Shown here: positions 15,373-35,135 of the stretch, in pieces
Layout: every line of letters begins with the position of its first letter
How positions within the stretch are numbered: the stretch's first letter is position 1
Source: Halobacterium noricense
GTDB taxonomy: Archaea > Halobacteriota > Halobacteria > Halobacteriales > Halobacteriaceae
DNA length: 64,000 nt
Reading direction: 5' to 3'
Assembly (NCBI RefSeq): GCF_021233435.1
Contig: NZ_CP089468.1
Location: 1,674,001 to 1,738,000, forward strand
The notes under the pieces: generated by a model
Database searches by the model: none
Seen by the model: the letters and a program-made list of their open reading frames with translations, nothing else
Told to the model about the DNA's origin: nothing
Program-made: the position numbers and the translations under genes

Positions 15373-15382
15373 ACCGAGAATC

Positions 15383-17185: not shown

Positions 17186-17331
17186 AGCGAGAACAGCCAC
17201 CCGCACCGACAAATAGGTTCGGCCGCGCGCCGGGCCGTGCCGTGATCCGTACGTTTTCCTAATGAAAACGAAACGAGCTCGGAAATCAGCGCCATACCAC
17301 CTCGAATAACAACGTTACCTCTGTTATCCAT

Positions 17332-19788: not shown

Positions 19789-19829
19789 CCGACCCCGGGA
19801 GTTACGTCGTCACCCGACCAGAAGCCAGT

Positions 19830-20183
19830 ATGGAACCACCCGAGAACCTCACTGTCGGCTCGTGGGACGACCCGTTCCTCGTCGAGGAAGCCTACGACGG
19901 TATCGAGCGGCGCGTACTCTGCTTCGACGACGAGACGATGCAGGTCCACTACACCGTCGACGAAGGCGCAGTCTTCCCCGAGCACAGCCACGAGGAGACC
20001 AAGCAGACCGTCTACGTCGTCAGCGGCGCGGTCGAACTGTTCGGCGACCGTGAGACCGTGCTGGAGGCAGGGGACTCGTTCATCGTCGGGCCGGGTGTCC
20101 GCCACGGTGTCCGCGGCGTCGCCGAGGAGTCACAGCTCCTAGATACGTTCACGCCACGAATCGAGGCGTACGCACAGACGTAG
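19830..20183 (+). CDS. Cupin domain-containing protein
   Basis: 117-residue single-domain cupin. The two motifs are FPEHSHEETKQTVYVVSGAVELFGD (two His, a Glu) and GDSFIVGPGVRHGVRG (third His). Small cupins of this type bind a metal and act as sugar or keto-acid isomerases, or as stress or regulatory proteins. The ATG at 19830 follows the LhgO-like gene and the two are probably co-transcribed. The reaction is unknown. Confidence 0.8.
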   Translation: MEPPENLTVGSWDDPFLVEEAYDGIERRVLCFDDETMQVHYTVDEGAVFPEHSHEETKQTVYVVSGAVELFGDRETVLEAGDSFIVGPGVRHGVRGVAEESQLLDTFTPRIEAYAQT

Positions 20184-20427
20184 CCAGTCTCGCGGGCGAA
20201 TCGCTCGCCGTCCCGCTGTCCGCGACCCGACGCTTTATTACCGCAGCGGTAGAACCTCCGGCACGACGAGCGACGAGTAGCACGCGGGACGGACTGCACT
20301 CCGACACCGCGTGTCGCCACTCACAGACTATGCAAGGTCTCAGGAACCGCGGCCGGTGGGCGGCCGCCACAGACGGCTGTATCGCGTCGAACGACCGACC
20401 TCGGTGGCCGGACGAACGAGGAGGCCG

Positions 20428-21900
20428 ATGACGTCCAGCCCGGACGAGCAGCCGGTCGAAGGGCGACTCCACGGTGATGTACCGATAGTCGACGTGGAAG
20501 CCGCCGCCGCGTCCATCGACGCGGACGCGACGGTGCTCACGAGCGGCTTCGGGAGCGTCGGCTACCCGAAGGCGATTCCGCTAGCGCTGGCGGACTCCGA
20601 GCGCGACCTTTCGCTGACCGTCGTTCACAGCGGGAACGTCGGCGACGAAATCGACGTCGACCTCGTGGAAGCCGGGGCAATCGAGCGGCGGTTCTCCTAC
20701 CAGTCCTCCCGGGTCGCCCGCGAGGCGACGAATCGCCGAGAAATCGCGTTCAGCGACCGGAACGCCTCCTCCATCGGCGACGAAGTACAGCACGGCGGCC
20801 TCGTCGACCCGGACGTCGCGGTCGTCGAAGCCGTCGCGGTGGGCGAGGGATGGTTCGTTCCGTCGACGTCGCTCGGCCAAGTACCCGCGTTCGTGGAAGC
20901 CGCCGACCGGCTGTACGTGGAGTTGAACCGCCGGCAACCGCTCGAACTGCAGTCACTACACGACATCTATCGGCCGGACGCGCCGCCGAACCGGGAGCCG
21001 GTTCCGCTCACCGACCCCGGCGAGCGCATCGGCACCACGTACGTCAGCTTCGACCCAGCGAAGCTCGCGGGCGTCGTCGAAACGGACGTCGCGGACTCGA
21101 CGTACACGTTCCGCGACCCGACCGACGACGACCTCTCAATCGCCGAGAACCTCGGGAAGTTTCTCGACGCGGAGATGGAGCGCTCGCCGGTGTTCGAGGA
21201 CGCGATCCACCTCCAGTTCGGCGTCGGGTCGCTCGGGAACGCGCTGATGGGCGAACTGAAGGAGCTGGACTTCGGCGACCGCGACGTCGTCTACTTCGGC
21301 GAACTCATCCAGGACGGCTTGCTGGACATGCTCGACGACGGCCAGCTGGAGTGCGCCAGCGCCACGTCGATGGCGCTCACTGACGAGGGCCAACAGCGGC
21401 TCTTCGACGACGTCGAGCGGTACGCCGAGGACGTCGTGCTCCGGCCGGCGGACGTCTCGAACCACCCGGGCGTCATCGACCAGTTCGGCGTCGTCGGCGT
21501 CAACAGCGCCATCGAGGTCGACGTCTACGGCAACGTCAATTCGACGCACGTCGGCGGCAAGCGGATGATAAACGGCGTCGGCGGCTCCGCGGACTTCAAC
21601 CGGAACTCCCTGGTCACGGTCTGCGCGCTCCCGTCGACGCTGAACGGCGGCGACGTCTCCCGCATCGTCCCGATGGCGTTCCACGTCGACCACACCGAAC
21701 ACGACGTCGACGTGTTCGTCACCGAACAGGGCGTCGCGGACGTCCGCGGGCGCTCGCCGGTCGAGCGCGCGGAACTGATAATCGAGCACTGCGCACACCC
21801 GGAGTTCGCGCCGGAGCTGCGCTCGTACCTCGACGACGTGCGCGAGCAGGACAACCACATCCCACACGACGTCCAGCGCGCCGCGGAGTGGCACGAGTAG
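20428..21900 (+). CDS. Acetyl-CoA hydrolase / CoA-transferase family protein
   Basis: 490-residue protein of the ACH1/Cat1/AarC class, which moves CoA between acyl-CoA and a carboxylic acid. VLTSGFGSVGYPKAIPLAL near residue 35 fits the N-terminal half; IHLQFGVGSLGNALMGEL and the C-terminal GVNSAIEVDVYGNVNSTHVGG...GSADFNRNS block fit the family. The glutamate that carries CoA is probably in INSAIEVD-type context. The start at 20428 has a purine-rich site (gaggagg) just upstream. Nearby glutaryl-CoA dehydrogenase and acyl-CoA enzymes suggest activation of a dicarboxylate or short-chain acid. Confidence 0.82.
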   Translation: MTSSPDEQPVEGRLHGDVPIVDVEAAAASIDADATVLTSGFGSVGYPKAIPLALADSERDLSLTVVHSGNVGDEIDVDLVEAGAIERRFSYQSSRVAREATNRREIAFSDRNASSIGDEVQHGGLVDPDVAVVEAVAVGEGWFVPSTSLGQVPAFVEAADRLYVELNRRQPLELQSLHDIYRPDAPPNREPVPLTDPGERIGTTYVSFDPAKLAGVVETDVADSTYTFRDPTDDDLSIAENLGKFLDAEMERSPVFEDAIHLQFGVGSLGNALMGELKELDFGDRDVVYFGELIQDGLLDMLDDGQLECASATSMALTDEGQQRLFDDVERYAEDVVLRPADVSNHPGVIDQFGVVGVNSAIEVDVYGNVNSTHVGGKRMINGVGGSADFNRNSLVTVCALPSTLNGGDVSRIVPMAFHVDHTEHDVDVFVTEQGVADVRGRSPVERAELIIEHCAHPEFAPELRSYLDDVREQDNHIPHDVQRAAEWHE

Positions 21901-21983
21901 CGCTCGGTGGACGCCCCTTTCTGCGGTGGAAGCAGTAGCGAGAAGCGCCGCGGACGAGTGCCGGAAGAAGCAGTCGGGCGGGC

Positions 21984-22226
21984 CTACAGGCTGATGCCGC
22001 CGCCGTAGAAGTAGAGGTACACCCACCAGACGTAGCCGACGGCCAGCGCGATGGCCGTCAGAATCTCTAACGCCGTGACGTAGGTGTCGCCGTGTGTCTC
22101 CCGGAACGACTGAATCCGCTCTATCTGTCGCCAGACCGGCATCAGCGGCTCCGGAACGACTTCGTCGAGGCCGCCGACGTCGGACGTGTCGACCTGGTCT
22201 TCGGGGGCTTCCCTGCTCGGGCTCAT
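21984..22226 (-). CDS. Small single-span membrane protein downstream of TRAP permease
   Basis: 80 residues with a soluble acidic N-terminus and one predicted helix (ALEILTAIALAVGYVWWVYLYF, kept short here) near the C-terminus. Its ATG overlaps the TRAP permease stop as ATGA, so it is the third gene of the transporter operon. TAXI-type TRAP systems usually lack a separate small subunit because it is fused into the permease; this may be an added subunit. No family was recognised. Confidence 0.7.
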   Translation of the reverse strand: MSPSREAPEDQVDTSDVGGLDEVVPEPLMPVWRQIERIQSFRETHGDTYVTALEILTAIALAVGYVWWVYLYFYGGGISL

Positions 22227-24214
22227 TGTTTCACCTCCTTAGTGAACGGAAGGTCGAGACCACGGACCATCACCTTCTCGGCGACGAAGACGGCGACGAA
22301 GACGGCGATTCCGGCGAGCTTCGCGAGCGCCATCGGGTACGCCATGATGAGAACGCCGAGCACCGCGAGCGCGGTCCGGGTGAGCAGCAGGCGTCCGAGG
22401 GACAGTTCGAACGGGTAGTTCAGGCCGTAGATGATGGAGATAGCGCCCATCACCACCATGAAGCCGACCCAGAGCGTCCCGAGCCCCGGGGACATCGAAA
22501 TCATCGCGGGGTTGTAGACGAACGCGATGGGGAGCACGAACAGCGGCGCAGCGATTTTCAGCGCCGCCCCGCAGGTCCGCCAGAAGTTCGCTTCCGCGAT
22601 GCCAGCGGCGACGACGGCCGCTGTCGCCACCGGTGGCGTGATGCCCGCCAGGATGGCGGCGTAGAACATCGTGTAGTGAGCCGTGATCTGTGCGACACCG
22701 AACTCGGAGACGAACGTCGGCACGATGAGGATAGCCACGATGACGTATGCGGCCACCGTCGGCATCCCGACACCCATCACGATGGCGACGGCCATACCGA
22801 GCAGCACTGCGAACAGCAGAATGCCGCCGGAGAGGTTGATCATCAGCAGCGCAATCTTCGCGGGGACACCGGTCGTCGAGAACAGGTTCACGACGCCGCT
22901 GATGACCACGAGGATGATGGCGATGGGCGCGAGGATGATGGCGCCCCGGCGGAAGCCGTGAATCGTGTTCTTGACCTGCGTGACGAACTCCGAGACCGGT
23001 CCGGTGTCCGAGCCGTCTACGAGCCGCTGGAGCGGCGGCATCAGGACGCCCGTGAGAATCATCGCGAACACGGTGTACATCGCGGACGTCATCACCGTGA
23101 ACTGGGCGAAGCCGAGGTAGTAGATGAGGACGCCGAACGGGATGCCGAAGCGGAGTGCTTCCGCGATTTTCTCGTTGCGCGAGAGTGGTTCGTCGAAGAA
23201 CTCCGAGAACTCCATGTCCTGGTCGCTGGAGTCGCTAATCGCGGTGTAGTGGACCGCGATGGCGATGGACGCGACCAGAATCGCTGCGGGAACCAACCCC
23301 GCGACGACGATGTTGAGGTACGCGACGCCGAGGTACGACGCCATCACGAACGCGGAGGCACCCATGACCGGCGGGAGAACCTGTCCCGCAGTCGAGGCGA
23401 CGGCTTCGATGCCGGCCGCGCGGTGGCCGGACATCCCGCTCTCTTGCATCGTCGGAATCGTGAACGACCCCGTCATCGCGGCGTTCGCCGTGTACGAGCC
23501 GTTGATGGAGCCGATGACCGCCGAGGAGAACACGGCCGTCTGTGCGACGCCCGACCGGATGCGTCCGGCCGCGACGATGGCGAGCCGGAGAATCAAGTCG
23601 AACGCACCGTACGCGAACAGCAGCCCGGCGTACAGGAGGAACGGCGCAATCCAGGACGCGGTCAGCTGTGTGAGTGAGCCGTAGAACCCGTACAGGTCCG
23701 TGACCGTCGCCTGTAGGAGGGTCAACTGGGACATTCCCGCGTGCCCGAGGACACCGGGAACGGCGTCGCCGAACATCGCGTACAGCATCACGCCGATGAC
23801 GAGCCCCAGGAACAGGTTCCCGAACTCGCGCCACGTGAGGTACAGCAGCGAGATGATGATGAGCCGCGCGAGCATGTACTCGTGCTGGGCGGCGAAGCCC
23901 TGGCGCAGGAGGTAGACGGTCTCGAAGTTCAGGAAGAAGTAAAACGACGCCGTGATGAGCACGCCCGCCGCCGGGAGCAACACCAGGGCGTCTATCCAGC
24001 TCCCTTCCTCGAGTGATTCGCGCGTCTCGTTGAGGGCGTAGACCGTCATGATGCCGCCCACGAACAGGACAGCGTACTTGACTGTCGACCACGTCTGGGT
24101 GTAGGCCCACCAGAGGACGACGCCCCAGAACAGAACGGCGACGAGCGTGACGCTAAGGTCGAGGCCGCGTAGCCACCCAGTGGGACCAGTTTCTCGTTCG
24201 GATTGTGTATCCAT
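22223..24214 (-). CDS. TRAP transporter fused permease (TAXI type, DctQM-like)
   Basis: 663-residue membrane protein with roughly 17-20 hydrophobic helices. An N-terminal 4TM-like part (DctQ) is followed by the large DctM part, with signature stretches such as GSINGSYTANAAMTGSFTIP and VLPPVMGASAFVMASYLG. It imports an organic acid by sodium-driven secondary transport, taking ligand from the TAXI binding protein encoded upstream. It overlaps the small membrane gene by four bases. The substrate is not readable; context favours a dicarboxylate or sugar acid. Confidence 0.92.
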   Translation of the reverse strand: MDTQSERETGPTGWLRGLDLSVTLVAVLFWGVVLWWAYTQTWSTVKYAVLFVGGIMTVYALNETRESLEEGSWIDALVLLPAAGVLITASFYFFLNFETVYLLRQGFAAQHEYMLARLIIISLLYLTWREFGNLFLGLVIGVMLYAMFGDAVPGVLGHAGMSQLTLLQATVTDLYGFYGSLTQLTASWIAPFLLYAGLLFAYGAFDLILRLAIVAAGRIRSGVAQTAVFSSAVIGSINGSYTANAAMTGSFTIPTMQESGMSGHRAAGIEAVASTAGQVLPPVMGASAFVMASYLGVAYLNIVVAGLVPAAILVASIAIAVHYTAISDSSDQDMEFSEFFDEPLSRNEKIAEALRFGIPFGVLIYYLGFAQFTVMTSAMYTVFAMILTGVLMPPLQRLVDGSDTGPVSEFVTQVKNTIHGFRRGAIILAPIAIILVVISGVVNLFSTTGVPAKIALLMINLSGGILLFAVLLGMAVAIVMGVGMPTVAAYVIVAILIVPTFVSEFGVAQITAHYTMFYAAILAGITPPVATAAVVAAGIAEANFWRTCGAALKIAAPLFVLPIAFVYNPAMISMSPGLGTLWVGFMVVMGAISIIYGLNYPFELSLGRLLLTRTALAVLGVLIMAYPMALAKLAGIAVFVAVFVAEKVMVRGLDLPFTKEVKQ

Positions 24215-24292
24215 GTGTTGGTGTGGTTTGCTTGTAGTAAAATATTGGTTGGGGTCCGGTTCGCGAATGCGGACGTCGCTGTGTGACGGGGG

Positions 24293-25411
24293 TTACGCCG
24301 TGTCGCCCTCTTGGAGGCTGTCGTCCCAGGCGTCGTTGTCCTTGTAGTACTGCACCGCGCCGGGGTGGACCGGGATGCGTTCCTGCGCGTACGCGAGCAT
24401 CTCCTCGGCGGAGCTGTAGTCGTTGAACTGCTCTTCGCCGTTATTGACGACGTCGTTGTGCTCGTGGGCGACCCGGCAGAGTTCGTAGACGGCGTCGGGA
24501 TTTGCCTCGGGGTTGAACGTGTAGTTGACCTCGAGGTCCCAGGTGAACACTTCGTCGGTGCCGATGTCGGCGTTCGCGATTGGCCACTCGCTGTAAGGCG
24601 TCCGGGTGGTGCCGGCCCCGGAGTACGACTCCGCGGACTCGATGAGTGCGTCCGTCGGTTCGACGTAGTGGAGGTCGACGCGGGAGGCCATCTCCTGAAC
24701 GAAGCCGGTGTACCGGACGCCAGGCGCGCCGTACGCGATGGACGCGTCGATGGAGCCCTCCTCCATCGCGCCCGGTGCGTCACCGACGCCCATGTTCTGG
24801 ATGTTCATCTGGTCGTAGATGTCCGCGGTCGGGTCCTGCGACCAGACGTCGAGCGTCGTCGCACGCGTCGAGTAGCCCGGCTCGGCGGGGTAGACGTTCT
24901 TCCCAGCGAGGTCGGCGAACGTCTCGATGCCCGTACCGTCGCGGGCGACGACGTAGATGCTGTACGGGAACGCGCCGAACCCGTACTGGGGGATGCGGGA
25001 GACCGACTGCTCGGAGAACTGGCCGCGGTCGTCGAGGGCCTTGTTGAGGGAGTTGTTGTCGGTGATGCCGGCGTTGAACTGATTCTGGGCCATCCGGTAG
25101 ATGGTCCCGATGTAGCCCGGGCTCTCGATGGTCGAGTAGTCGAGAGTGTCGCTCTCCTGGCTGACGGCGCGCTCTACTGCGAGCCCGACGTCCTGGGTCC
25201 CACCGGCAGACGTGCCGACGCGCAGCGAGAGGCTCTCGCTGCCGCCACCGTTGCCGTCCTCGGTGGTACCGCTGCCACCGCCGTTTTCAGTGGTGCCGTC
25301 GCCGCCACTGTCGCCGTCGCCACCGGTACATCCCGCGAGTCCCGCGATGCCCGCTGCAGCTGTGCCGTACAAGAACTTGCGTCGCTTCATCCTGTCGTCG
25401 ACCATGTTCAT
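24293..25411 (-). CDS. TAXI family TRAP transporter solute-binding lipoprotein
   Basis: About 372 residues. The N-terminal Tat/lipobox signal has MKRRKF (twin Arg), a hydrophobic stretch and LAGC, followed by a Gly/Ser/Thr-rich linker typical of haloarchaeal lipoproteins. The binding domain starts LSLRVGTSAGGTQDVGLAVE, the TAXI signature. It captures the substrate outside the cell for the permease at 22223. ATGs at 25411, 25405 and 25390 are all possible; the last puts the twin Arg at residues 3-4. Co-transcribed with the permease, 78 bases upstream of it. Confidence 0.9.
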   Translation of the reverse strand: MNMVDDRMKRRKFLYGTAAAGIAGLAGCTGGDGDSGGDGTTENGGGSGTTEDGNGGGSESLSLRVGTSAGGTQDVGLAVERAVSQESDTLDYSTIESPGYIGTIYRMAQNQFNAGITDNNSLNKALDDRGQFSEQSVSRIPQYGFGAFPYSIYVVARDGTGIETFADLAGKNVYPAEPGYSTRATTLDVWSQDPTADIYDQMNIQNMGVGDAPGAMEEGSIDASIAYGAPGVRYTGFVQEMASRVDLHYVEPTDALIESAESYSGAGTTRTPYSEWPIANADIGTDEVFTWDLEVNYTFNPEANPDAVYELCRVAHEHNDVVNNGEEQFNDYSSAEEMLAYAQERIPVHPGAVQYYKDNDAWDDSLQEGDTA

Positions 25412-25512
25412 CCCTGTCAACCCGGTCTATCATTAACAATCTATCTGTTTGTTTCACCTATATAGGCATGCAAAAACGGAACGTGGTAGACTACGGTACG
25501 GCTCCGCGCAGC

Positions 25513-25941
25513 TCACTCGGTGAACGACACTGTGACCGGGCACTCCGCCGAGAGCATCACCGACTGCGTCGTGCTCCCGAACAACACCTTCCCGGTCGGA
25601 CTCCGCTTGCGGCCCCCCATCGAGATGTTGTCGGCGTCGATCTCGGCGGCGACTGCGAGTATCTTCTCGGCGACCCCGCCGTGCTCGCGTCGCTTCGACA
25701 CCGCCGCGACCCGCGATTCGAGGTACTGTTCGACCGCGGTGACGCTCTCGGGGAAGTTGCTCTCGTTCCAGACGTCCTCAGATTTGACTTTGCCGGCCTC
25801 GCCCGTGACGTCGAACTCCTCGAAGACGTTGAGGACGACGACCTCGACATCCTCGTCGGCGTTCGGGAAGTCACCGACGGCTTCTGCGGCGTTCATCGCG
25901 CGGTCCGCGTTGTCGCTGACGGGCAGTAGTACTCGGTACAC
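25513..25941 (-). CDS. Universal stress protein (UspA) family
   Basis: 142-residue Usp domain: [20 protein letters not shown] at the N-terminus and the ATP-loop-like [23 protein letters not shown] near the C-terminus (G-2x-G-9x-G-S/T). Usp genes often accompany transporter genes in haloarchaea and probably regulate them. A GTG at 25941 is chosen because the family starts with the first beta strand; an earlier GTG at 25956 is also in frame. It lies directly upstream of the TAXI gene. Confidence 0.85.
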
Positions 25942-25992
25942 GGTAGCGACACACACAGTCTCGCGTAATAAAAATTCCCGCTGGCAGGGCGC

Positions 25993-26814
25993 CTACCGCG
26001 TCACTGGCGCCTCAGCGACGCCGATGGACTCCACGACCGCGCGGACGTCGTCGCCCGGCTCGATGTGCGCCGCGCCGGGCGTCCCCGTGCTGAACAGGTC
26101 GCCGGGTTCGAGTGTCATCACGTCGGAGTGGAACGAGACAATTTCCTCGGGCGGGAACAACATGTTCCGAATCTCGTTCTCGGCCTCTATGGTGCCGTTG
26201 ACCTCCGTCTGCACCGACAGCGACGTGAGATCGAGGGGCTCCTCGGGCACCGCGAGCGCGGCGCCGGGCACGAGAAACGTGTCGTAGCTCTTCGCGCGAG
26301 TCAGGAACCGCGGGTTCCGCTGGAGGACGTCCTCGGCGGTCATGTCGATGACCGGGAGGAAGCCCGCGACGACGTCCTCGAAGTCGGCCTCGTCGACGTT
26401 CCGACAGGTTCGCCCCATCACGACGCCGAGTTCGGCTTCGGCGGTCACGCGCTCGCTCTGGGATTCCGGGGGGAGCCGAATCGGGCCGCCCGGCCCAGTC
26501 GGCACCGTCGAGGGCTTCATGAAGCTCGCGGGCTCCTCGGGGCGCTGCTCGTCGAGGTCGCCGGCGTGCTCCTCGTAGTTCAGGCCGATGCCCCAGAGCT
26601 TCCCGAATTCCTCGAGGGGCGCGCCGAACGTGATGTCCGCAGCCGGCACGGGGTCGGCTGGTGCGTCCGCTACGTCACCGAGCGTTCCGTCGGCCGCTCG
26701 CGGGAGCGCGTCGCGGACGCTGTCGAGGTCGGGCTCGACCGCGTCGAGCGGGACGTAGCCGTCCTCGTCGCCGAGCAGCGGGTCGCCGGTCGCGGTGCGT
26801 GCGAGGTACTTCAT
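25993..26814 (-). CDS. Fumarylacetoacetate hydrolase family protein
   Basis: 273-residue FAH-fold protein (2-hydroxyhepta-2,4-diene-1,7-dioate isomerase type). WGIGLNYEEHAGD, FMKPSTVPTGPGGPIRLP, TAEAELGVVMGRTCRNV (metal Glu pair) and FSTGTPGA are conserved. The family hydrolyses C-C bonds in 2,4-diketo acids, decarboxylates or isomerises. Its ATG overlaps the cupin stop (ATGA). With an SDR and enolase-family dehydratases next to it, a 2,4-diketo-3-deoxy-sugar-acid hydrolase role (as in diketo-hydrolase pathways) is attractive but inferred. Confidence 0.87.
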   Translation of the reverse strand: MKYLARTATGDPLLGDEDGYVPLDAVEPDLDSVRDALPRAADGTLGDVADAPADPVPAADITFGAPLEEFGKLWGIGLNYEEHAGDLDEQRPEEPASFMKPSTVPTGPGGPIRLPPESQSERVTAEAELGVVMGRTCRNVDEADFEDVVAGFLPVIDMTAEDVLQRNPRFLTRAKSYDTFLVPGAALAVPEEPLDLTSLSVQTEVNGTIEAENEIRNMLFPPEEIVSFHSDVMTLEPGDLFSTGTPGAAHIEPGDDVRAVVESIGVAEAPVTR

Positions 26815-27158
26815 TCTTCGCGGTCCGTCCAGAAGTCGAACGAGCGCCCGGGTGCGAACACGTCGAGGCCGACGGCGCGCTCGTCGCCGGTGTTCTCCAC
26901 GCGGTGGGCCTCGTTGGACTCCAGCAGCACCGAGTCGTTCGGCTGGAGCGTGACCTCGCGGTCCTCGGTGGCGACGGTGAGTTCGCCTTCGAGGCAGAGA
27001 CACACCTGCTCGTTCTCGTGGTCGTGCATCGGCGAGCTGTGGCCCGGCGGCTTCTCGAACCACTCGAAGGAGAACTGGTCGCTGCCTGCCATCGAGACGC
27101 GCCGCCAGCCCTCGTCGGGCTCGTAGCTCTCCGCCTCGTCGAACTTCACGGGCTTCAT
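26811..27158 (-). CDS. Cupin domain-containing protein
   Basis: 115-residue cupin: PGHSSPMHDHENEQVCLCLEGELTV carries two His and a Glu, and NDSVLLESNEAHRVENTG the third His. It is embedded between the SDR and FAH genes with four-base overlaps on both sides, so it belongs to the same pathway. It may act as a small isomerase or lactone/sugar mutarotase, or as a metal-dependent sensor. Function unproven. Confidence 0.82.
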   Translation of the reverse strand: MKPVKFDEAESYEPDEGWRRVSMAGSDQFSFEWFEKPPGHSSPMHDHENEQVCLCLEGELTVATEDREVTLQPNDSVLLESNEAHRVENTGDERAVGLDVFAPGRSFDFWTDREE

Positions 27159-27943
27159 AGGTTGGACTCCGTGGAACCGCCGTCAATCGGGAGCGCAGCG
27201 CCGTTGATGTAGCCGGACTTCGGCGAGCTCAGGAACGCGACCGTGTCGCCGAGCTCTATCGGGTCGCCGATGCGGCCGAGCGGGTTGCCCGCCCAGTCTT
27301 CGAGGCCCTCCTCGTAGTTCTCGTAGTCGCCGCGCTCGATGGCGCTGTCGATGAGGTTCTGGATGCGGGAGGTCTCGTGGGAGCCGGGGAGGACGGCGTT
27401 CGCGCGGACGTCGGGGGCGAACTCCTTCGAGAGCGTCTTCTCCAGGCCGATGACTGCCATGCGAACCGAGTTCGACAGCACGAGGTTCTCCTTGGCTTCC
27501 TTGACGGTACGGGAGGTGATGGTGACGATGGTGCCGCCGTCGCCTTCCTTCAGGTGGGGTGCGGCTTCGCGCGCCAGTCGCACGACACTCATCACGAGCA
27601 GGTCGTAGGCGTGCTCCCAGTCCTCGTCGGTCGTGTCGAGGAACTCGCCGGACGGCGGGCCGCCGGCGCTGGTCACGAGGTGGTCGATAGTCCCGAACTC
27701 CTCGGCTGTCGTCTCCACCAGCGCCGTGATGTCGTCGGCGTCGGTCAGGTCGCCCTGCTGAGCGACGACCTCTCCGGTCGCGACTTCCTCGACTTCCTCG
27801 CGTGCTTCCTCCAGGCGGTCCTCGTCGCGGCCGTTGATGACGACGTTGGCACCCTCGCGGGCGAGCGCCTTCGCAGAGGCCTTGCCGAGGCCGCTGGACG
27901 ACGCGGTTACGAGCGCTGCGTTGCCGTCGATTTCCAGGTCCAT
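27155..27943 (-). CDS. Short-chain dehydrogenase/reductase, atypical active site
   Basis: 262-residue SDR resembling the 'BKR-like' group. The cofactor motif TASSSGLGKA (residues 13-22) deviates slightly from TGxxxGxG. TITSRTV carries the usual Ser (about 144), but the YxxxK pair is absent: the position reads NSVRM (158-162), and SAGG replaces NNAG. This loss is characteristic of a known SDR subgroup whose chemistry is unclear. First gene of the minus-strand operon with cupin and FAH; start ATG 27943. Divergent from the MR/MLE gene at 28115. Confidence 0.85.
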   Translation of the reverse strand: MDLEIDGNAALVTASSSGLGKASAKALAREGANVVINGRDEDRLEEAREEVEEVATGEVVAQQGDLTDADDITALVETTAEEFGTIDHLVTSAGGPPSGEFLDTTDEDWEHAYDLLVMSVVRLAREAAPHLKEGDGGTIVTITSRTVKEAKENLVLSNSVRMAVIGLEKTLSKEFAPDVRANAVLPGSHETSRIQNLIDSAIERGDYENYEEGLEDWAGNPLGRIGDPIELGDTVAFLSSPKSGYINGAALPIDGGSTESNL

Positions 27944-28114
27944 GTCACAGTCAATCAGAGTAGAGGGTGAAAACGTTTCCGTAAAGGCAAGCGGCGAACG
28001 ACGACTCGACTGCCACCCCGGTCCGTTCGCGCGTCGCCGCCGGTCACGAGTACTGTTCGAGTAATTGTTGCCGATACAACGGGCTACTTGTGTGCGTGCT
28101 TCGCGGCTCCTTCC

Positions 28115-29224
28115 ATGGAAATCACGGACGTCGAGTCGTTCCCGATCAAGTTGCCCCTGGAGTCCCCGGTGTCGTTCTCCAATCGCACGCTCACGTACCG
28201 CGACCACGCGATAACGTACGTGCGGACGGACACCGGCCACGAAGGGGTCGGCTACTCGCTGGGCTACGAGGGCGCGGGCCTCATCGCCGACGCCGTCGAA
28301 TCACTGCTGGAGCCGATGCTCGTCGGCGAGGACCCACGGGACACCGAGCGGCTGTGGCACGAGATGTACAACGGGACGGTCCAGATCGGCCGAACCGGCC
28401 TGCTGCTGCGCGCCATCTCCACGGTCGACATCGCGCTCTGGGACGTGAAAGGGAAAGCTGCGGGCGAACCGCTGCACAAGCTCCTGGGCGGACACGCCGA
28501 GCGGGTCCCGTCGTACGCCAGCGGCGGCTACTATCGCGACGACAAGGGCCACGAGGGCCTGCGCGGCGAGATGCGGCGCTACCTCGACGAGGGCCACGAC
28601 GTCGTGAAGATGAAAGTCGGGCGACGGTCGGCCGACGAGGAAGCGGACCGCGTCGCCGCCGTGCGCGACGAAATCGGCGACGAGCGCACGCTCCTGCTGG
28701 ACGCCAACGGCGTCTGGGAGTCGACGACTGAAGCGCTGCGCAACTGCCGGGAGTTCGCGCCCTACGACCCGTACTTCATCGAGGAGCCGGTGATGATTGA
28801 CCGCGTGGATACGATGGCGGAGGTCAACGACGCCCTCGACTACCCGGTCGCCACCGGCGAACTAGAGGGGACGCGGCACAACTTCGCGCGCCTCGCCGAC
28901 TCGGGCGCCGCGACCATCCTCCAGCCGGACGTCACCGTCTGTGGTGGCATCACGGAGTGGCTGAAAATCGCCCACCACGCCGCCGCCTACGACATCCCCA
29001 TCGCGCCCCACTACAACTGGAACATCCACGCGTCGCTTCTGGGCGCCATCGAGAACGGGCTCTGGGTGGAGTACTTCTACCGCGACATGGACGTGAAGGC
29101 GTTCGACGACGTCGTCGCCGACCCCGTGGAGCCCGACGACGACGGCATGATCGACCTCCCCGACCGGCCCGGCCACGGCGTTCCCCTCGACAAGGACGCC
29201 CTCCAGAAGTTCAGAGACGAATGA
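28115..29224 (+). CDS. Mandelate racemase/muconate lactonizing enzyme family protein (enolase superfamily)
   Basis: 369-residue enolase-superfamily enzyme of the mandelate-racemase subgroup. The KxK motif is K165-M-K167; metal ligands are Asp196 (DANGVW), Glu223/224 (FIEEP) and Glu249; the acid/base dyad is Asp272 with His299 (IAPHYN). These are the residues of sugar-acid dehydratases and racemases. ATG 28115 is preferred to the upstream in-frame GTG at 28088. Its stop overlaps the ATG of the second enolase-family gene. Confidence 0.88.
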   Translation: MEITDVESFPIKLPLESPVSFSNRTLTYRDHAITYVRTDTGHEGVGYSLGYEGAGLIADAVESLLEPMLVGEDPRDTERLWHEMYNGTVQIGRTGLLLRAISTVDIALWDVKGKAAGEPLHKLLGGHAERVPSYASGGYYRDDKGHEGLRGEMRRYLDEGHDVVKMKVGRRSADEEADRVAAVRDEIGDERTLLLDANGVWESTTEALRNCREFAPYDPYFIEEPVMIDRVDTMAEVNDALDYPVATGELEGTRHNFARLADSGAATILQPDVTVCGGITEWLKIAHHAAAYDIPIAPHYNWNIHASLLGAIENGLWVEYFYRDMDVKAFDDVVADPVEPDDDGMIDLPDRPGHGVPLDKDALQKFRDE

Positions 29225-30438
29225 GAGATTTCTCAGACCAAATCGAAACCCGCGACCCGGACCGAGACGTCGAAATCACGAGCATCGACGCGTGCGTCGT
29301 CGAAGGCAACTTCGAGTGGAACCTCATCAAGGTGGAGACCGACGCCGGCGTCACCGGCATCGGCGAAGCGTACCGCGGCGGCGGCGTCCCCGAGCTCGTG
29401 GAGTACACCAACCGCTTCCTCGTCGGCGAGAACCCCCTCGACGTCGAACGCCTCGTGCGGTACATCTTCCAGGAGATGTCCGGGCACGGCGGCACCACCG
29501 GGAAGGTCGTGACTGCTGCTTCGGGCATCGAGGTGGCGCTGCTGGACGCCGCCGGGAAGATTCTCGGCCTCCCCGTCTACCAACTGCTCGGGTCGAAGTA
29601 CCGCGACGAGGTGCGCCTGTACTGTGACTGCCACGCGGGCGAAGCGTACGCCGTCGAGGACGGCGCGACCGACTACGCCGAGGCCGAGGCGTACACGCCC
29701 GAGGCGTACGCTGCCGAGGCCGCGCGCGTCACCGACATGGGCTTCGACGCGCTGAAGTTCGACCTCGACCTCCCCGCGGACAACGCGAACGACCCGTACA
29801 ACGGCCGCCTCACGAACGCCGCCATCCGAGAGAAGCGCGACATCGTCGAGGCCGTCCGCGAGGAAATCGGCTACGACGTGGACCTGGCGTTCGACTGCCA
29901 CTGGGACTACTCCGTCGAGAGCGCCAAGCGGCTCGCACACGAGCTCGAGGAGTTCGACCTGATGTGGCTCGAAGACCTCGTGCCCCCCGAAAACATGGAC
30001 GCCCAGAAGGAAGTGACGCAGGCCACGCGGACGCCCGTCGCGACGGGCGAAAACCGCTTCCGCGTGTTCGAACTCTCGGAGCTCGTCTACGAGCACGGCG
30101 TCGACGTCGTCACCCCGGACCCGACCACCGTGGGCGGGCTGACGGAGACGATGCGGGTCGCCGACCGCGCGGAGGAGAACTACATCCCGATGTCCCCGCA
30201 CAACGTCTGCAGTCCCGTGGGGACGACGGCGTGCGTCCACCTCGGCGCGGCGACGCCGAACTTCGACCTCCTGGAGTATCACGCCCTGGAGGTCGACTGG
30301 TGGGACGACCTGCTCGCGCGCGACGAGCCGCTCATCGAAGACGGCCACATCGACGTGCCCGAGGCGCCCGGGCTCGGCATCGAACTCGACGAGGACGTCG
30401 TGGAGGAGCACCGCCTCGAAGGGACGTCCGGGTTCTGA
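29221..30438 (+). CDS. Enolase-superfamily sugar-acid dehydratase-like protein
   Basis: 405-residue second member of the mandelate racemase family, only distantly like its neighbour. LKFDLDL around 179 takes the place of KxK; Asp225 and His227 (FDCHWDY), Glu251 (WLEDLVPPEN), Glu277 (TGENRF) and His327 (SPHNVCS) fit D-gluconate/mannonate/galactonate dehydratase-type proteins. It is translationally coupled to the upstream gene (ATGA overlap). Product would be a 2-keto-3-deoxy acid. Substrate unassigned. Confidence 0.86.
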   Translation: MRDFSDQIETRDPDRDVEITSIDACVVEGNFEWNLIKVETDAGVTGIGEAYRGGGVPELVEYTNRFLVGENPLDVERLVRYIFQEMSGHGGTTGKVVTAASGIEVALLDAAGKILGLPVYQLLGSKYRDEVRLYCDCHAGEAYAVEDGATDYAEAEAYTPEAYAAEAARVTDMGFDALKFDLDLPADNANDPYNGRLTNAAIREKRDIVEAVREEIGYDVDLAFDCHWDYSVESAKRLAHELEEFDLMWLEDLVPPENMDAQKEVTQATRTPVATGENRFRVFELSELVYEHGVDVVTPDPTTVGGLTETMRVADRAEENYIPMSPHNVCSPVGTTACVHLGAATPNFDLLEYHALEVDWWDDLLARDEPLIEDGHIDVPEAPGLGIELDEDVVEEHRLEGTSGF

Positions 30439-30485
30439 GCGGCGCGTCGTGGGGGTATTTATTGGTGGAGACGGTACGACGAGAT

Positions 30486-31658
30486 ATGCTCGATTACTTC
30501 GGCATCGAGGGAGACCTCGACCAGGAGGAGCGACTGCTGGTGGAATCCGCCCGCGAGTTCGTCGACGGCGAAGTCGAGGATATCGGCCAACACTGGATAG
30601 ACGGCACCTTCCCTGAAGAGCTCATCCCGAAGATGGGCGAGATGGGGTTCTACGCGCCGAACCTGGAAGGGTACGGGCTGCCGAACGTCAGCGAGAAGTC
30701 ATACGGGCTGTTGATGCAGGAGCTAGAGGCGTGTGACTCGGGGCTGCGCTCGATGGCGAGCGTGCAGGGCGCGCTCGTGATGTACCCGATTCACGCGTTC
30801 GGCAGCGACGAGCAAAAAGAGGAGTGGCTGCCGAAGCTCGGCGCCGGCGAGGCCGTCGGCTGCTTCGGCCTCACCGAACCCGAGCACGGGTCGAACCCCT
30901 CCGCGATGGAGACGCGCGCCGAACGTGCCAGCGGGAACGCGGGCGACGAGTACGTCCTGAACGGCTCGAAGACGTGGATTACGAACTCCCCGATTGCGGA
31001 CGTCGCGGTCGTCTGGGCGAAAGACCACAGCGAGGACGACAACCCCGTCCGGGGGTTCCTCGTGGAGACAGACCGCGACGGCGTCACGACGAACAAAATC
31101 GACGACAAGCTCAGCCTCCGTGCGTCCGTCACGGGCGAAATCAGCCTCCAGAACGTTCGCATTCCGGCGGAAAACCGGCTGCCGGGCGTCGAGGGGATGA
31201 AGGGGCCGCTGTCGTGTCTCACGCAGGCGCGCTACGGCATCGCGTGGGGCGCAATTGGTGCGGCCAGGGATTGCTTCGAGACCGCTCGCGAGTACGCTAC
31301 GGACCGCGAGCAGTTCGGGAAACCCATCGGCGGCTTCCAGATGCAACAGCAGAAGCTCGCGGAGATGGCGACCCAGATTACGCTCGCGCAGTTGCTCGCG
31401 CACCGCCTCGCGAACCTCAAGGAGCGCGGCGACATGCGCCCCCAACACGTCTCGATGGCGAAGCGCAACAACGTCCGAATGGCCCGCGACCAGTCCCGCA
31501 TCGCCCGCGAGATGCTCGGCGGTAACGGCATCACCACGGACTACTCGCCGATGCGCCACATGACGAACATGGAGACCGTCTACACGTACGAGGGCACCCA
31601 CGACATCCACACGCTGATTCTCGGCGAGGACCTCACTGGCATCCAGGCGTACCAGTAG
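30486..31658 (+). CDS. gcdH: Acyl-CoA dehydrogenase, glutaryl-CoA dehydrogenase-like
   Basis: 390-residue FAD-dependent acyl-CoA dehydrogenase. The catalytic base is Glu369 in TYEGTHDIHTLILG, nearly identical to glutaryl-CoA dehydrogenases, and the C-terminus TGIQAYQ also fits. The FAD-binding CFGLTEPEHGSNPSAM and WITNSPIADVAVVWA stretches are present. It oxidises and decarboxylates glutaryl-CoA to crotonyl-CoA, which the HAD/ECH fusions can process. The gene has its own spacing of 47 bases after the dehydratase. Its own promoter may be the tatttattggtgg at 30456. Confidence 0.87.
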   Translation: MLDYFGIEGDLDQEERLLVESAREFVDGEVEDIGQHWIDGTFPEELIPKMGEMGFYAPNLEGYGLPNVSEKSYGLLMQELEACDSGLRSMASVQGALVMYPIHAFGSDEQKEEWLPKLGAGEAVGCFGLTEPEHGSNPSAMETRAERASGNAGDEYVLNGSKTWITNSPIADVAVVWAKDHSEDDNPVRGFLVETDRDGVTTNKIDDKLSLRASVTGEISLQNVRIPAENRLPGVEGMKGPLSCLTQARYGIAWGAIGAARDCFETAREYATDREQFGKPIGGFQMQQQKLAEMATQITLAQLLAHRLANLKERGDMRPQHVSMAKRNNVRMARDQSRIAREMLGGNGITTDYSPMRHMTNMETVYTYEGTHDIHTLILGEDLTGIQAYQ

Positions 31659-32618
31659 TCAGGCGACCTGATTCCGGAGGCCGGCGTACTCGCCCGTCTC
31701 CGCGGCGCGGGCGAGGTTCTCCACGAGGATATCGGCGCGGCGCTCCCAGTACTTCGGCGTGTGCCCGGCGACGTGGGGCGTGAGGAAGACGTTCTGGAAC
31801 CCCCAGAGGTCGTGGTCCCGCGGCAGCGGCTCCGGGTCGGTGACGTCGAGGCCGGCACCGTGGATGGTGTTCGATTCGAGTGCGGAGACGAGCGCGTCCG
31901 TGTCGACGACACCGCCGCGCGCGACGTTCACGAGAATCGCGTCGGTCGGCAGCGCCTCCAACTCTGTCTCGCCGATTAGCCCCTCGGTCGTCTCCGTCAG
32001 CGGGCACGCGAGTACGAGCACGTCGGTCGCCGGGAGGACGTCCGGCAGGTCGTCGAAGCCGACCACCTCGTCCGTGGGGCCGCCCTTCTCGACGGAGTGG
32101 CGGACGCCGACCGTGGACACGTCGAAACCCTCGAAGCGCTGGACGACCGTCTCGCCGATGGCACCGAGGCCGACGACGGTGACAGTACTCTCAGTGAGTT
32201 CGGCGAACGACTGGAAGCGGCGCCACTCGCGGCGCTGCTGGCGGCGCCGACCTTCGTCGAGCCGGCGAGTGAACGTGAGAACCCACCCGAGCACGTGCTC
32301 GGCGATGTTCGGACCGTGGACGCCGGAGGCGTTCGTCACCGCGACGCCGCGTTCGGCGAGCGCTTCGAGCGGGAGGTGGTCGACGCCCGCGGCGTTACAC
32401 GCGAACAGTCGGAGATTCTGGGCGGCGTCGAGGTCGTCGACGGTGAAGAACTTCCCCGCGACGACTCCGGCTTCGCGGAGGCACTGCTGGCGTTCGTCGG
32501 GCGTCGCAGCGAGGCGGACAGTGTAGTCGGGGAGGCGTCGCTGGAGGATGTCGGCGTAGTCGGCGGCCGGGATGCCGTGCGCGTCGTGGTCGAGCACCGC
32601 GACGTCCGTGGTGGTCAT
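31659..32618 (-). CDS. D-2-hydroxyacid dehydrogenase (NAD-dependent)
   Basis: 319-residue member of the D-isomer-specific 2-hydroxyacid dehydrogenase family. The Rossmann motif is VVGLGAIGETVV near residue 140; the catalytic Arg is in VNVARGGVVDTDAL, the Glu in the TDPEPLP loop and the His in FLTPHVAGHTP. It reduces 2-keto acids or oxidises D-2-hydroxyacids. Convergent with the glutaryl-CoA dehydrogenase (no gap). ATG 32618 follows the family start. Confidence 0.9.
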   Translation of the reverse strand: MTTTDVAVLDHDAHGIPAADYADILQRRLPDYTVRLAATPDERQQCLREAGVVAGKFFTVDDLDAAQNLRLFACNAAGVDHLPLEALAERGVAVTNASGVHGPNIAEHVLGWVLTFTRRLDEGRRRQQRREWRRFQSFAELTESTVTVVGLGAIGETVVQRFEGFDVSTVGVRHSVEKGGPTDEVVGFDDLPDVLPATDVLVLACPLTETTEGLIGETELEALPTDAILVNVARGGVVDTDALVSALESNTIHGAGLDVTDPEPLPRDHDLWGFQNVFLTPHVAGHTPKYWERRADILVENLARAAETGEYAGLRNQVA

Positions 32619-32666
32619 GCTCCCAGAAATACGGTGCCACGACAAAACTCCCGGGGTCGGGCCCGG

Positions 32667-33917
32667 TCAGTCGGCCATTCGAATCGGCGGCGCTGCGCTC
32701 ATCGCGAGCAGGCAGACGATGCCGGTGCCAGCGCCGAGGAGCCCGGTTCCGATGCCGACCGCGCGTACGGCCGCGACGAAGCCGAACTGCGTCGTCGCGA
32801 CTGCGATGGCACCGCCCATCAGAATCGGTGTCATCGTCGCGGCCGCACGGCCGCTGCCCTCGCTGAGACTCACGAGGCCGCCGCGGAGGTCCGGCGGCGC
32901 TAGCGTGGTGATGACGCTCCGGTATATCGAGAGCACGAGCCCGAAGCCGACGCCCATCAGCACGACGCCGACGGCCGCGACGGGCAGCGACGGCGCGAGG
33001 AAGACGAGCGCGAGGCCGCCGCCCATCGAGACGTTCAGGGCGAGGAGCGGATAGAGACGGTCGTCGAACAGGTCGGCGATGCGCCCGGCCTGCGTCGCCG
33101 CGACCGCGTACGTCAGACTGGCTAGCGCCGCGAGCAGTCCCGCGTACGTCGGGGTGCTACCGAGCACGTCGACGACGAGAATGGAGTTGTAGGTGAGAAA
33201 GCCGAACCACGCGAGGTTCGCGCTGCCGCGGGCGACAATCATCGTCCACGCGCGCCGGTGTGCGACGAGCGTCCGGAGGTCCGCGAGCTGCGCACCCAGT
33301 CCGGCCTCGGACTCGTCGCTGGCGGTCGTCTCGACGGGCTCCTCGAACCAGACGTAGACGACAGCCGCGATTGGGAACGCGATGGCGTACAGCAAGAACG
33401 GGTACTGCCACGCCATCCCGACGAGGACGCCCGCCGCGAGCGGGAAGACTGTCTGCGAGAGTCCCGACCCGGTGAACCGGAGGCCTTGCGCGGTCGCCTC
33501 TTTCGTCCCAGTGTAGAGGTCGCCGAGACTGGTGATGATTATCGGGGTGAGTGCGGCGAAGCCGATGCCCTGGAGGAGGCGGAGCGCGAGTGCGGCTTCG
33601 AACGTCGAGACGAGCGCGATTGCCGTGCCGGTCAGCCCGAACCACAGCAGCCCGAAGATGAGGACCGGCCGCCGCCCGTACCGGTCGGAGACGACCCCCG
33701 CGACGGGAATGACGAAGATGGCGGGAGCGGTGAACGCGGACATCAACAGCCCGATGTTCGCCGTCGATGCGCCGAGGGGTTCGACGAGCGAACCGAGCAC
33801 GGGCGACAGGAGCGCGGTGCCCAGTGGTGGAAGCACGTTGATGAGCAACAGCAGCTGGAACGGGCGCTCCCCCACAATTTCCGTGTCTTCTCCGGCGATG
33901 GACGACGGCGATACCAC
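32667..33917 (-). CDS. Major facilitator superfamily transporter
   Basis: 416 residues with 12 hydrophobic helices. The loop motif DRYGRRPVLIFGL (between helices 2 and 3) is the MFS signature, and a GRIADLFDDR copy marks the second half. GTG start at 33917. It is likely a sugar-acid or organic-acid/effluxed-metabolite carrier; specificity unknown. It diverges from the IclR gene at 34073, and a TTCGA-N5-TCGAA site lies between them. Confidence 0.88.
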   Translation of the reverse strand: MVSPSSIAGEDTEIVGERPFQLLLLINVLPPLGTALLSPVLGSLVEPLGASTANIGLLMSAFTAPAIFVIPVAGVVSDRYGRRPVLIFGLLWFGLTGTAIALVSTFEAALALRLLQGIGFAALTPIIITSLGDLYTGTKEATAQGLRFTGSGLSQTVFPLAAGVLVGMAWQYPFLLYAIAFPIAAVVYVWFEEPVETTASDESEAGLGAQLADLRTLVAHRRAWTMIVARGSANLAWFGFLTYNSILVVDVLGSTPTYAGLLAALASLTYAVAATQAGRIADLFDDRLYPLLALNVSMGGGLALVFLAPSLPVAAVGVVLMGVGFGLVLSIYRSVITTLAPPDLRGGLVSLSEGSGRAAATMTPILMGGAIAVATTQFGFVAAVRAVGIGTGLLGAGTGIVCLLAMSAAPPIRMAD

Positions 33918-34021
33918 ACGTGAGGGTCACGGGTGGTCGAATTAAAGCTACCTATCGGGACATCGAGGTGCGGCGCGGGTCAGCGCGCGGCCGACGAAGC
34001 GGTCGCCGTGTCGAACGTCGG

Positions 34022-34040
34022 TATTCGATGGAGTCGAACG
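34022..34040. promoter_or_regulatory. Candidate IclR operator, site 1 (TTCGA-N5-TCGAA)
   Basis: Palindrome tattcgatggagtcgaacg in the 155-bp gap between the MFS and IclR genes, 33 bases before the IclR ATG. Two further copies flank the same regulator gene downstream. Repetition at both ends of the iclR gene suggests the regulator binds here. Confidence 0.6.
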
Positions 34041-34072
34041 ATTTTTGGTAGTGCGGTCCAACTCTGTGACAC

Positions 34073-34849
34073 ATGAGCACACCCCCCGACGACGGCCTCG
34101 CCGATTCGGTACAAACAGCGCGGACGCTATTCGATATTGTCCAACGCATCTCCGACGAAGAGGGAGCGCCGCTGTCGGCGTTGGCTGGCGAACTCGACTA
34201 CGCGAAGAGCACAGTCCACCGACACCTTCGGACGCTAGAAGACCTCGGTTACGTGGTCAAGCGCGACGGCAACTACCACGTCGGCCTCCGATTCCTCGAG
34301 CTCGGGGTGACCGCTCGGAACAGCTACCGCGGCTACAATCTCGTCCGGGAGAAAGTCGAGGAGATTGCCGAAGAGACCGGCGAACGCGCGCAGTTCTTCG
34401 TCGAAGAGCACGGGAAGGTGGTGTACCTCGCTCGGTCGGTCGGCGAGCACGCGGTCCGAACGGACCCCGGAATCGGGAGCCGCATCCCCCTGTACGCGGC
34501 GTCCGCAGGGAAGGCGATTCTGTCGGAGCTCCCCCCGCAGGAGCTGTCCGATATGTTCGAACAGATGTCGTTCGAGCCCGTGACCGAGCACACGATTACC
34601 GACCCGGACGAGCTGCGGTCGGAGCTCGAAGCGGTCCGCGAGCGCGGGTTCGCGTTCAACCGCGAGGAATCGCTGCGCGGTACGCACGCCGTCGGCGTCC
34701 CCATTTGCGCACCGGACGGCGACGTCATCGGCGGACTCAGCGTCACCGGTCCGAGCCACCGACTGAAGGGGGAGCGCTTCGAAGCGGAGCTCCCGGACCT
34801 GCTGCTCGGCGCCGCGAACGAGCTCGAGCTCAACATCGCGCACTCGTAA
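34073..34849 (+). CDS. IclR family transcriptional regulator
   Basis: 258-residue IclR protein. The winged helix spans residues 15-70 (TLFDIVQRISDEEGAPLSALAGELDYAKST, then HRHLRTLEDLGYVVK); the effector domain has RIPLYAASAGKAILSELP and FNREESLRGTHAVGVPI. It differs clearly from the IclR at 15383. The gene is flanked by three TTCGA-N5-TCGAA palindromes, so it probably controls itself, the MFS gene and the mannonate-dehydratase-like gene. The ligand is unknown. Confidence 0.9.
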   Translation: MSTPPDDGLADSVQTARTLFDIVQRISDEEGAPLSALAGELDYAKSTVHRHLRTLEDLGYVVKRDGNYHVGLRFLELGVTARNSYRGYNLVREKVEEIAEETGERAQFFVEEHGKVVYLARSVGEHAVRTDPGIGSRIPLYAASAGKAILSELPPQELSDMFEQMSFEPVTEHTITDPDELRSELEAVRERGFAFNREESLRGTHAVGVPICAPDGDVIGGLSVTGPSHRLKGERFEAELPDLLLGAANELELNIAHS

Positions 34850-34898
34850 CCGCGCACTCGTCGCCCGGACGACGCCGAACTGGTCCGGATTCGAGAAC

Positions 34899-34915
34899 AT
34901 TCGACGAAGTCGAAC
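34899..34915. promoter_or_regulatory. Candidate IclR operator, site 2 (TTCGA-N5-TCGAA)
   Basis: attcgacgaagtcgaac, 50 bases after the IclR stop. It is nested in a longer inverted repeat (AACATT on the left, AATGTT on the right), and site 3 starts ten bases further on, so the two may bind dimers side by side. Confidence 0.6.
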
Positions 34916-34924
34916 GAAATGTTG

Positions 34925-34943
34925 TATTCGATTGAGTCGAACA
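34925..34943. promoter_or_regulatory. Candidate IclR operator, site 3 (TTCGA-N5-TCGAA)
   Basis: tattcgattgagtcgaaca, within the 286-bp region upstream of the mannonate-dehydratase-like gene. The pattern is a full match to sites 1 and 2 in the two half-sites. Confidence 0.6.
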
Positions 34944-35135
34944 CTGGAGGCGTCGCGTCCATCCGCTGGTCGGTCGAGGTTCGCCACAAGCGATACGAAT
35001 ATAACGCAAGTACTTCTGTTACGCTCGCTGTCGCTGGCTGCCACGTCCCACGACCAACCGTTCGACGTTTTCGAGCGAGTACACGGACTGACGGCAACTA
35101 AACATTTAACTAGGCCACCACCATTTTGCGAGCTA

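Follow-up and report, generated by a model that had tools for sequence, protein, structure and literature searches.

What does the gene cluster at positions 25993–30438 of a 64,000-nucleotide stretch of Halobacterium noricense DNA (contig NZ_CP089468.1, positions 1,674,001–1,738,000; the whole stretch is called the window below) degrade, and why does it lack the LarA-type isomerase gene that its relatives usually carry? The cluster encodes an FAH-superfamily hydrolase, a small cupin, an SDR-fold oxidoreductase and two enolase-superfamily dehydratases (MR1 and MR2). We propose that it belongs to an island degrading an aldonate-like sugar acid by dehydration, oxidation and FAH cleavage, and that larA was lost in the window probably for lack of the genes for its nickel-pincer cofactor, a combined reading whose chances we judge to be even. 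What was read from sequence is the order and families of the genes, their catalytic residues, their conservation in named genomes and the loss of larA. Open reading frame calls and Pfam searches agreed with the gene set and positions given in the original prediction, an earlier note on this DNA, with FAH, cupin and SDR on the minus strand and the two dehydratases diverging from them.

25993–26814, minus strand: FAH-superfamily hydrolase (PF01557, FAA_hydrolase, 157.8 bits; aligned to 1gtt, 1wzo and 3rr6)
26811–27158, minus strand: small metal-type cupin (PF07883, Cupin_2, 65.6 bits)
27155–27943, minus strand: SDR-fold oxidoreductase without YxxxK (PF13561, adh_short_C2, 163.9 bits)
27969–27980, no strand: palindrome GAAAACGTTTCC before the SDR gene, containing the window's only AAACGTTT
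27997–28044, no strand: larA scar, 48 bases in the place of the relatives' larA
28115–29224, plus strand: MR1, enolase-superfamily dehydratase of the KxK and His/Asp type (PF13378, MR_MLE_C, 208.5 bits)
29221–30438, plus strand: MR2, enolase-superfamily dehydratase of the Asp-x-His type (PF13378, MR_MLE_C, 219.4 bits; 2qq6, 290 bits)

All five genes start with ATG and far exceed the Pfam gathering scores. The FAH/cupin, cupin/SDR and MR1/MR2 pairs each overlap by 4 bases, and 171 bases lie between the starts of SDR and MR1. Because the arrangement recurs in many named loci, the grouping is not due to chance. A scan of named genomes for MR2 gave 76 loci, 57 of which had both 10-kilobase (kb) flanks, and 29 of these 57 also held SDR and MR1 (hereafter core loci). 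FAH was found in 25 and the cupin in 26 of the 29 core loci, the TAXI receptor and permease of a TRAP transporter in 24, a D-2-hydroxyacid dehydrogenase in 11, an MFS gene in 8, and an acyl-CoA dehydrogenase within 10 kb in 8. A CoA-transferase was found in at least 10, which is an undercount because the gene sits at the edge of the flank. The window's cupin/SDR spacing was repeated in 26 of 30 measured loci. MR2 of Halobacterium sp. CBA1126 was 95% identical to that of the window with a common gene order, and the same order was found on annotated plasmids, for example in Haloarcula litorea. Six genomes (G094, G065, G227, G279, G072 and G245) have a close homologue of the hydroxyglutarate oxidase encoded upstream in the window at ∼10–12 kb from MR2, on one contig with it, and two others (G010 and G221) have one within the island. 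As judged from these comparisons, the core genes form the central part of an island that is conserved, with a patchy distribution, among haloarchaea. Its parts are the L-2-hydroxyglutarate-oxidase-type enzyme, CoA-transferase, TAXI-type TRAP transporter, FAH, cupin, SDR, MR1, MR2, D-2-hydroxyacid dehydrogenase, MFS transporter and IclR regulator, often with the acyl-CoA dehydrogenase.

Of the 29 core loci, 25 encode a LarA homologue. The usual place of its gene is between SDR and MR1, and in some loci (e.g. L100) it lies elsewhere; in a wider set a homologue was present in 55 of 112 loci, and 28 of the 57 misses were 4.2-kb loci. The relatives' proteins pass the NCBIfam model for nickel-pincer isomerase group 22 (NF052515, NPN_iso_grp_22; cut-off 400 bits) with, for example, 485.7 bits in locus L107 and 493.5 bits in locus L112. 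Both catalytic histidine segments (GSHGG and KAHTNF) are retained, their residue roles having been matched by eye to passages of the LarA papers (PMC7583248, PMC11770544). The relatives' usual extra gene thus belongs to the nickel-pincer racemases and epimerases of the LarA superfamily treated there, the window lacks this gene, and a tested substrate for group 22 was not found in the passages of these papers that were consulted. No related solved structure was found for group-22 LarA at E 1e-5. Three group-22-like LarA genes were found near MR2 in Haladaptatus salinisoli (L112, 12161–14843 and 22730–26713), one of which adjoins genes for a four-carbon acid sugar kinase and a cupin as well as pdxA.

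A genome search detected group-22 LarA neither in the window nor in the whole genome to which it belongs. In a sister genome of the same genus (G094), the same island carries an intact larA between SDR and MR1. When the window was compared with this genome by blastn, positions 27702–27996 and 28045–28299 aligned and the 48 bases between them had no significant match. On this alignment, larA is lost from the window. Decay of the sister's larA was considered and rejected, as the gene has no private change at columns that are otherwise invariant in 42 sequences. Strict replacement of LarA by a UxuA-like protein was also rejected, since UxuA with at least 60% identity was found in 2 of the 76 named loci and the sister genome has both genes.

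The distribution of the cofactor genes suggests a cause for this loss. Of the class's 292 genomes, 128 had group-22 LarA and 241 had LarC; LarC was present in 126 of the 128 LarA-bearing genomes, the only exceptions being the sister genome and G235. The window's genome has no LarB and no LarC, and gave weak matches only for LarE (best 48.1 bits against a cut-off of 150). LarB, LarC and LarE were not found in the sister genome either, though its larA is intact. Eleven of 17 checked genomes belong to the window's genus; LarC was found in none of them, and LarB with an above-cutoff LarE in G235 alone, a draft genome where a 5.8-kb contig (L132, 1–5808) holds a distant LarA (43%), LarB and LarE, and no LarC was found. 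Halobacterium sp. CBA1126 also has no LarC, and by eye its contig opens with the first codons of larA. Some LarA-bearing islands therefore seem, from these gene searches, to sit in hosts unable to make the nickel-pincer cofactor. G167 is a further island carrier with neither LarC nor LarA, and in the related genomes G010 and G221, which have no LarC, the island has no larA and holds the oxidase gene and the UxuA-like gene between SDR and the MR pair. Among the 66 genomes that have an MR2 orthologue, 49 of the 59 with LarC and one of the seven without it had LarA (Fisher p 0.0005). On this evidence, larA was probably lost in the window because its host lacks the LarB, LarC and LarE genes.

Several points weigh against this link. 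The test over 66 genomes ignores relatedness and counts LarA anywhere in the genome, and 10 of the 59 LarC-bearing MR2 genomes lack LarA, compared with six of the seven LarC-less ones. Two of these seven (G191 and G193) have no island SDR or FAH within 20 kb around MR2. The sister's larA is undecayed despite a host without LarB, LarC and LarE. Moreover, five loci (L058, L069, L073, L098 and L051) have island parts and no LarA in the locus while LarC is present in all five genomes, which weakens the cofactor argument; L073 is apparently from the same assembly as G220, as their LarC coordinates agree, and G220 has four group-22 LarA genes elsewhere. Such loci favor the view that larA was lost neutrally in this lineage, without a link to the cofactor, or that its absence is an assembly error. 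We consider this rather unlikely, given that the LarC-less relatives G010 and G221 likewise have no larA in the island and that LarA and LarC are associated over the 292 genomes.

The deletion spared the palindrome GAAAACGTTTCC. AAACGTTT was found in 24 of 58 loci within 220 bases upstream of the SDR gene, at 34–40 bases ahead of the start, where 0.0044 occurrences are expected per 220 bases. It was found before MR1 in 4 of 61 loci and never before LarA (0/53), FAH (0/50), TAXI (0/42) or MR2 (0/90). GAAAACGTTTCC is a putative operator that would overlap the core promoter for the operon of SDR, cupin and FAH, and it may be an IclR operator or a conserved core promoter. A second palindrome, GTTGCCGATACAAC at 28067, was rejected because it was found before MR1 in none of 61 loci.

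We then compared the catalytic residues of the encoded enzymes with those of solved relatives. MR1 matches talarate/galactarate dehydratase 2pp0 at Lys165 and Lys167 (the KxK motif), Asp196, Glu223-Glu224, Glu249, Asp272 and His299. MR2 has Asp225 and His227 (the Asp-x-His motif), Glu251, Glu277, Asp300 and His327, arranged as in its nearest solved relative 2qq6 (357 residues aligned, 290 bits), whose entry name states an enolase-superfamily protein only and whose source organism we take to be Rubrobacter xylanophilus. The metal ligands and catalytic bases of acid-sugar dehydratases are thus present in MR1 compared with 2pp0 and in MR2 compared with 2qq6, with presumed residue roles. MR2 groups with Asp-x-His aldonate dehydratases such as gluconate and galactonate dehydratases, yet it scored 201–208 bits against their models, under the cut-offs of 750 and 311. 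That the residue sets of MR1 and MR2 differ fits two C2 epimers as their substrates. In Haladaptatus sp. YSMS36 (L110, 47–29136), eight enolase-superfamily genes and an arabinofuranosidase gene were found within 31 kb around the island.

FAH retains the active-site residues His83, Asp86, Glu126, Glu128, Asp157 and Lys175 in the alignment to 1gtt, 1wzo and 3rr6. These include the metal site and the His-acid dyad, roles that are presumed for this family, and the acid is Asp86 in the window and Glu in 1gtt and 1wzo. Its score against the 2,4-didehydro-3-deoxy-L-rhamnonate hydrolase model (NF053535) was 116.9 bits, short of the curated cut-off of 500, and we propose it as a putative 2,4-diketo-3-deoxy-acid hydrolase. 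In the cupin, His45, His47 and His85 are conserved over 50 sequences, and a ring-opening or tautomerizing helper role is proposed. With the active-site residues of FAH and of the two dehydratases in place, the idea that FAH, SDR and the MR-type dehydratases form a set for sugar-acid catabolism resembling the oxidative diketo-hydrolase scheme is supported.

The SDR had been described in advance as lacking YxxxK, and the alignment to 3ai3 bore this out: of the classical Ser-Tyr-Lys set, Ser144 is retained, and Ser157 and Arg161 stand at the Tyr and Lys positions, both unchanged across all 33 aligned sequences. The peculiarity is not unique to the window, as 2z1n, 5vps, 5idx and 1o5i have the same replacement as well as the GGP segment. 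The names of these entries state no substrate, whereas the window SDR is tied to a sugar-acid operon; to our knowledge, this subgroup is known from solved structures only. An AlphaFold2 model of the SDR matched 5vps and 2z1n in the PDB and gives weak support, for the fold only, with a mean pLDDT (the per-residue model confidence) of 70.5 and values below 50 for residues 145–156 beside the catalytic site. We propose the protein as a putative 4-dehydrogenase. The invariant Ser157 and Arg161 could instead mark a non-redox or regulatory SDR-fold protein that is no dehydrogenase, with the FAH substrate made in another way. This seems to us unlikely on balance, since relatives bind the cofactor according to their PDB titles (5vps with NADPH, 5va8 and 5idy with NADP), the Tyr/Lys replacement itself having been read for 5vps and 5idx.

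The substrate question also depends on the remaining genes around the core, which were as follows.

18586–19788, plus strand: FAD-dependent L-2-hydroxyglutarate-oxidase-type enzyme (NF008726, 436.7 bits, above the cut-off of 299)
19830–20183, plus strand: second small cupin (PF07883, 51.2 bits)
20428–21900, plus strand: CoA-transferase of the succinyl-CoA:acetate type (NF053853, 504.3 bits, barely above the cut-off of 500; TIGR03458, 511.5 bits, under the cut-off of 658.7)
22223–24214, minus strand: fused TRAP transporter permease (PF06808, 185 bits)
24293–25411, minus strand: TAXI-type solute receptor of the TRAP transporter (PF16868, 75.2 bits)
25513–25956, minus strand: universal-stress-type protein (named by synteny with L107)
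30486–31658, plus strand: acyl-CoA dehydrogenase, glutaryl-CoA-dehydrogenase-like (NF045552, 228.9 bits, under the cut-off of 470)
31659–32618, minus strand: D-2-hydroxyacid dehydrogenase (PF02826, 178 bits; NF041369, 240.8 of 400 bits)
32667–33917, minus strand: MFS transporter (named by synteny with L107)
34073–34849, plus strand: IclR-family regulator (TIGR02431, 155.1 of 284.75 bits)
35136–36179, plus strand: UxuA-like protein of the mannonate-dehydratase family (PF03786, 182.8 bits)

The UxuA-like protein has the HPSDPP, GCWSE, HFRDV and PDH segments, which presumably include its metal ligands, and scored 146.3 of 191 bits against NF003027. The glutaryl-CoA dehydrogenase that the original prediction had added to the pathway lies just outside the span of the core, is under its curated cut-off and is accessory, given its count in the core loci.

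No aldose dehydrogenase or lactonase was recognized among the genes of 18586–36179 scanned with NCBIfam or Pfam, a scan that did not include the universal-stress-type and MFS genes. Together with the TAXI-type TRAP transporter, this indicates that the pathway probably starts from an acid rather than from L-rhamnose or L-fucose. The likeness to diketo-hydrolase pathways suggested earlier therefore stands, whereas the suggested start from these two sugars does not, also in view of the FAH score. A variant of the known L-rhamnose/L-fucose route acting on its usual substrate would have the same enzyme classes, and MR1 does give 131.3 bits with the L-rhamnonate dehydratase model besides the FAH match to the L-rhamnonate hydrolase model. 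We find such an ordinary variant quite improbable: the MR1 score is far under its cut-off of 393, as is that of FAH under its own, and Haloarcula litorea carries rhcC and L-rhamnose mutarotase in a set of their own ∼10 kb away. L-rhamnose and L-fucose were accordingly rejected as the likely substrates.

For an aldonate-like acid, we infer the substrate and the following enzyme steps. The TAXI-type TRAP transporter would take up the acid. In relatives, the nickel-pincer LarA homologue would invert C2, making both C2 epimers usable; in the window, without LarA, the epimer-specific dehydratases would remain. MR1, MR2 and probably the UxuA-like enzyme would dehydrate the C2 epimers to one 2-keto-3-deoxy acid, which the SDR would oxidize at C4, the cupin perhaps opening a cyclic form. 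Cleavage of the resulting 2,4-diketo acid by FAH would release pyruvate together with a 2-hydroxy acid that is perhaps glycerate, and this hydroxy acid would be processed by the hydroxyglutarate-oxidase-type enzyme (L form) and the D-2-hydroxyacid dehydrogenase (D form). Glycerate is suggested as the product because glycerate-kinase homologues lie near islands and elsewhere in the window's own genome: the island of Haloarcula litorea has a GntP-type permease and a homologue of glycerate 2-kinase at its side, that of G167 adjoins a 56% glycerate-kinase homologue, and a MOFRL glycerate kinase is encoded at another place in the window's genome. In bacteria, genes resembling group-22 LarA (37–43% identity) have neighborhoods that support sugar acids as the substrate class, adjoining uxaC with larEBC in Paenibacillus, an altronate dehydratase gene and a LarC-type gene in Pseudosulfitobacter, and a four-carbon acid sugar kinase gene and pdxA in Rubrobacter.

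The scheme has its difficulties. Glycerate kinase adjoins only two islands, the CoA-transferase and acyl-CoA dehydrogenase have no role in the proposed steps, and MR1, MR2, FAH, acyl-CoA dehydrogenase and UxuA are each under the cut-offs of their NCBIfam equivalog models. As the SDR has neither the classical catalytic Tyr nor Lys, the C4-oxidation step may be wrong. The CoA-transferase, acyl-CoA dehydrogenase and hydroxyglutarate oxidase suggest a possible C5-dicarboxylate branch, and in a fuller form of this idea the island would degrade a C5 dicarboxylic or 2-hydroxy-dicarboxylic acid, which would be imported by the TAXI-type TRAP transporter and processed by the hydroxyglutarate oxidase, CoA-transferase and glutaryl-CoA-dehydrogenase-like enzyme, with FAH, SDR and the MR enzymes feeding in a related hydroxy acid or aldarate. 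The above-cutoff oxidase and the resemblance of MR1 to talarate/galactarate dehydratase are in its favor, as is the placement of the CoA-transferase and acyl-CoA dehydrogenase genes: they are direct neighbors in G010 and G221, and in G245 the hydroxyglutarate oxidase gene lies close to both. We nevertheless regard it as unlikely, because the acyl-CoA dehydrogenase is present in so few core loci and MR2 falls among aldonate dehydratases.

Outside the island, a class II aldolase gene and a HAD hydrolase gene with a 1-base overlap were found at 57451–58811. They had been tentatively linked to the pathway, a link that did not hold: among 148 loci, the pair was found only in a same-genus flank (L147, of the sister genome) and in no other locus with the island, and the link was rejected. 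The region of 6340–17212 resembles a block for aromatic meta-cleavage degradation, with genes for an FAD hydroxylase, a ring-cleaving dioxygenase, hydratases, a hydroxy-oxovalerate aldolase and an acetaldehyde dehydrogenase, and adjoins the island in the sister genome too (L135). At 43458–47370, a transposase-like gene, so named by reading only, adjoins an acetyl-CoA-synthetase-like gene.

The enzyme classes of the island are already known, and the pathway logic resembles that of the diketo-hydrolase routes. The oxidative diketo-hydrolase L-rhamnose pathway is known in bacteria and was reportedly described in Haloferax by Reinhardt in 2019 (cited in PMC8305020). The island shares MR-type dehydratase, SDR and FAH with the L-rhamnose and L-fucose pathways, and pyruvate and a hydroxy acid would likewise be the products. 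It differs from them in having no recognized enzymes for an aldose start, two dehydratases of different catalytic types, an SDR without YxxxK, a cupin, TAXI-type TRAP uptake and, in relatives, the LarA isomerase. In the open-licence papers searched, we found neither the combination of such a route with a nickel-pincer isomerase nor the loss of this isomerase in a host without the cofactor genes; searches on the island, on haloarchaeal nickel-pincer enzymes and on LarA gave nothing about the island. Passages on open annotation issues in Haloferax volcanii mention a possible enzyme with the nickel-pincer cofactor made by larBCE and leave the enzyme unnamed (PMC8305020).

Taken further, and with somewhat less than even confidence, the comparisons would fit group-22 LarA acting as C2-epimerase in a sugar-acid pathway that is widespread in haloarchaea, and as a main client of their larBCE genes. 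The island would have been transferred into a cofactor-less genus, where the epimerase is an orphan in the sister genome and Halobacterium sp. CBA1126 and was deleted in the window's lineage with operator, operons and dehydratases retained. MR1, MR2 and the UxuA-like enzyme would cover its role, and the SDR would be a catabolic dehydrogenase without Tyr-Lys. If the SDR acts on 2-keto-3-deoxy acids, an SDR subgroup with solved structures would gain a physiological role. The window would be a natural larA deletion mutant in a host without cofactor genes. As the conserved operon pairs group-22 LarA with two dehydratases, it offers a candidate client for haloarchaeal larBCE with a short list of substrates, and the question of that client becomes testable.

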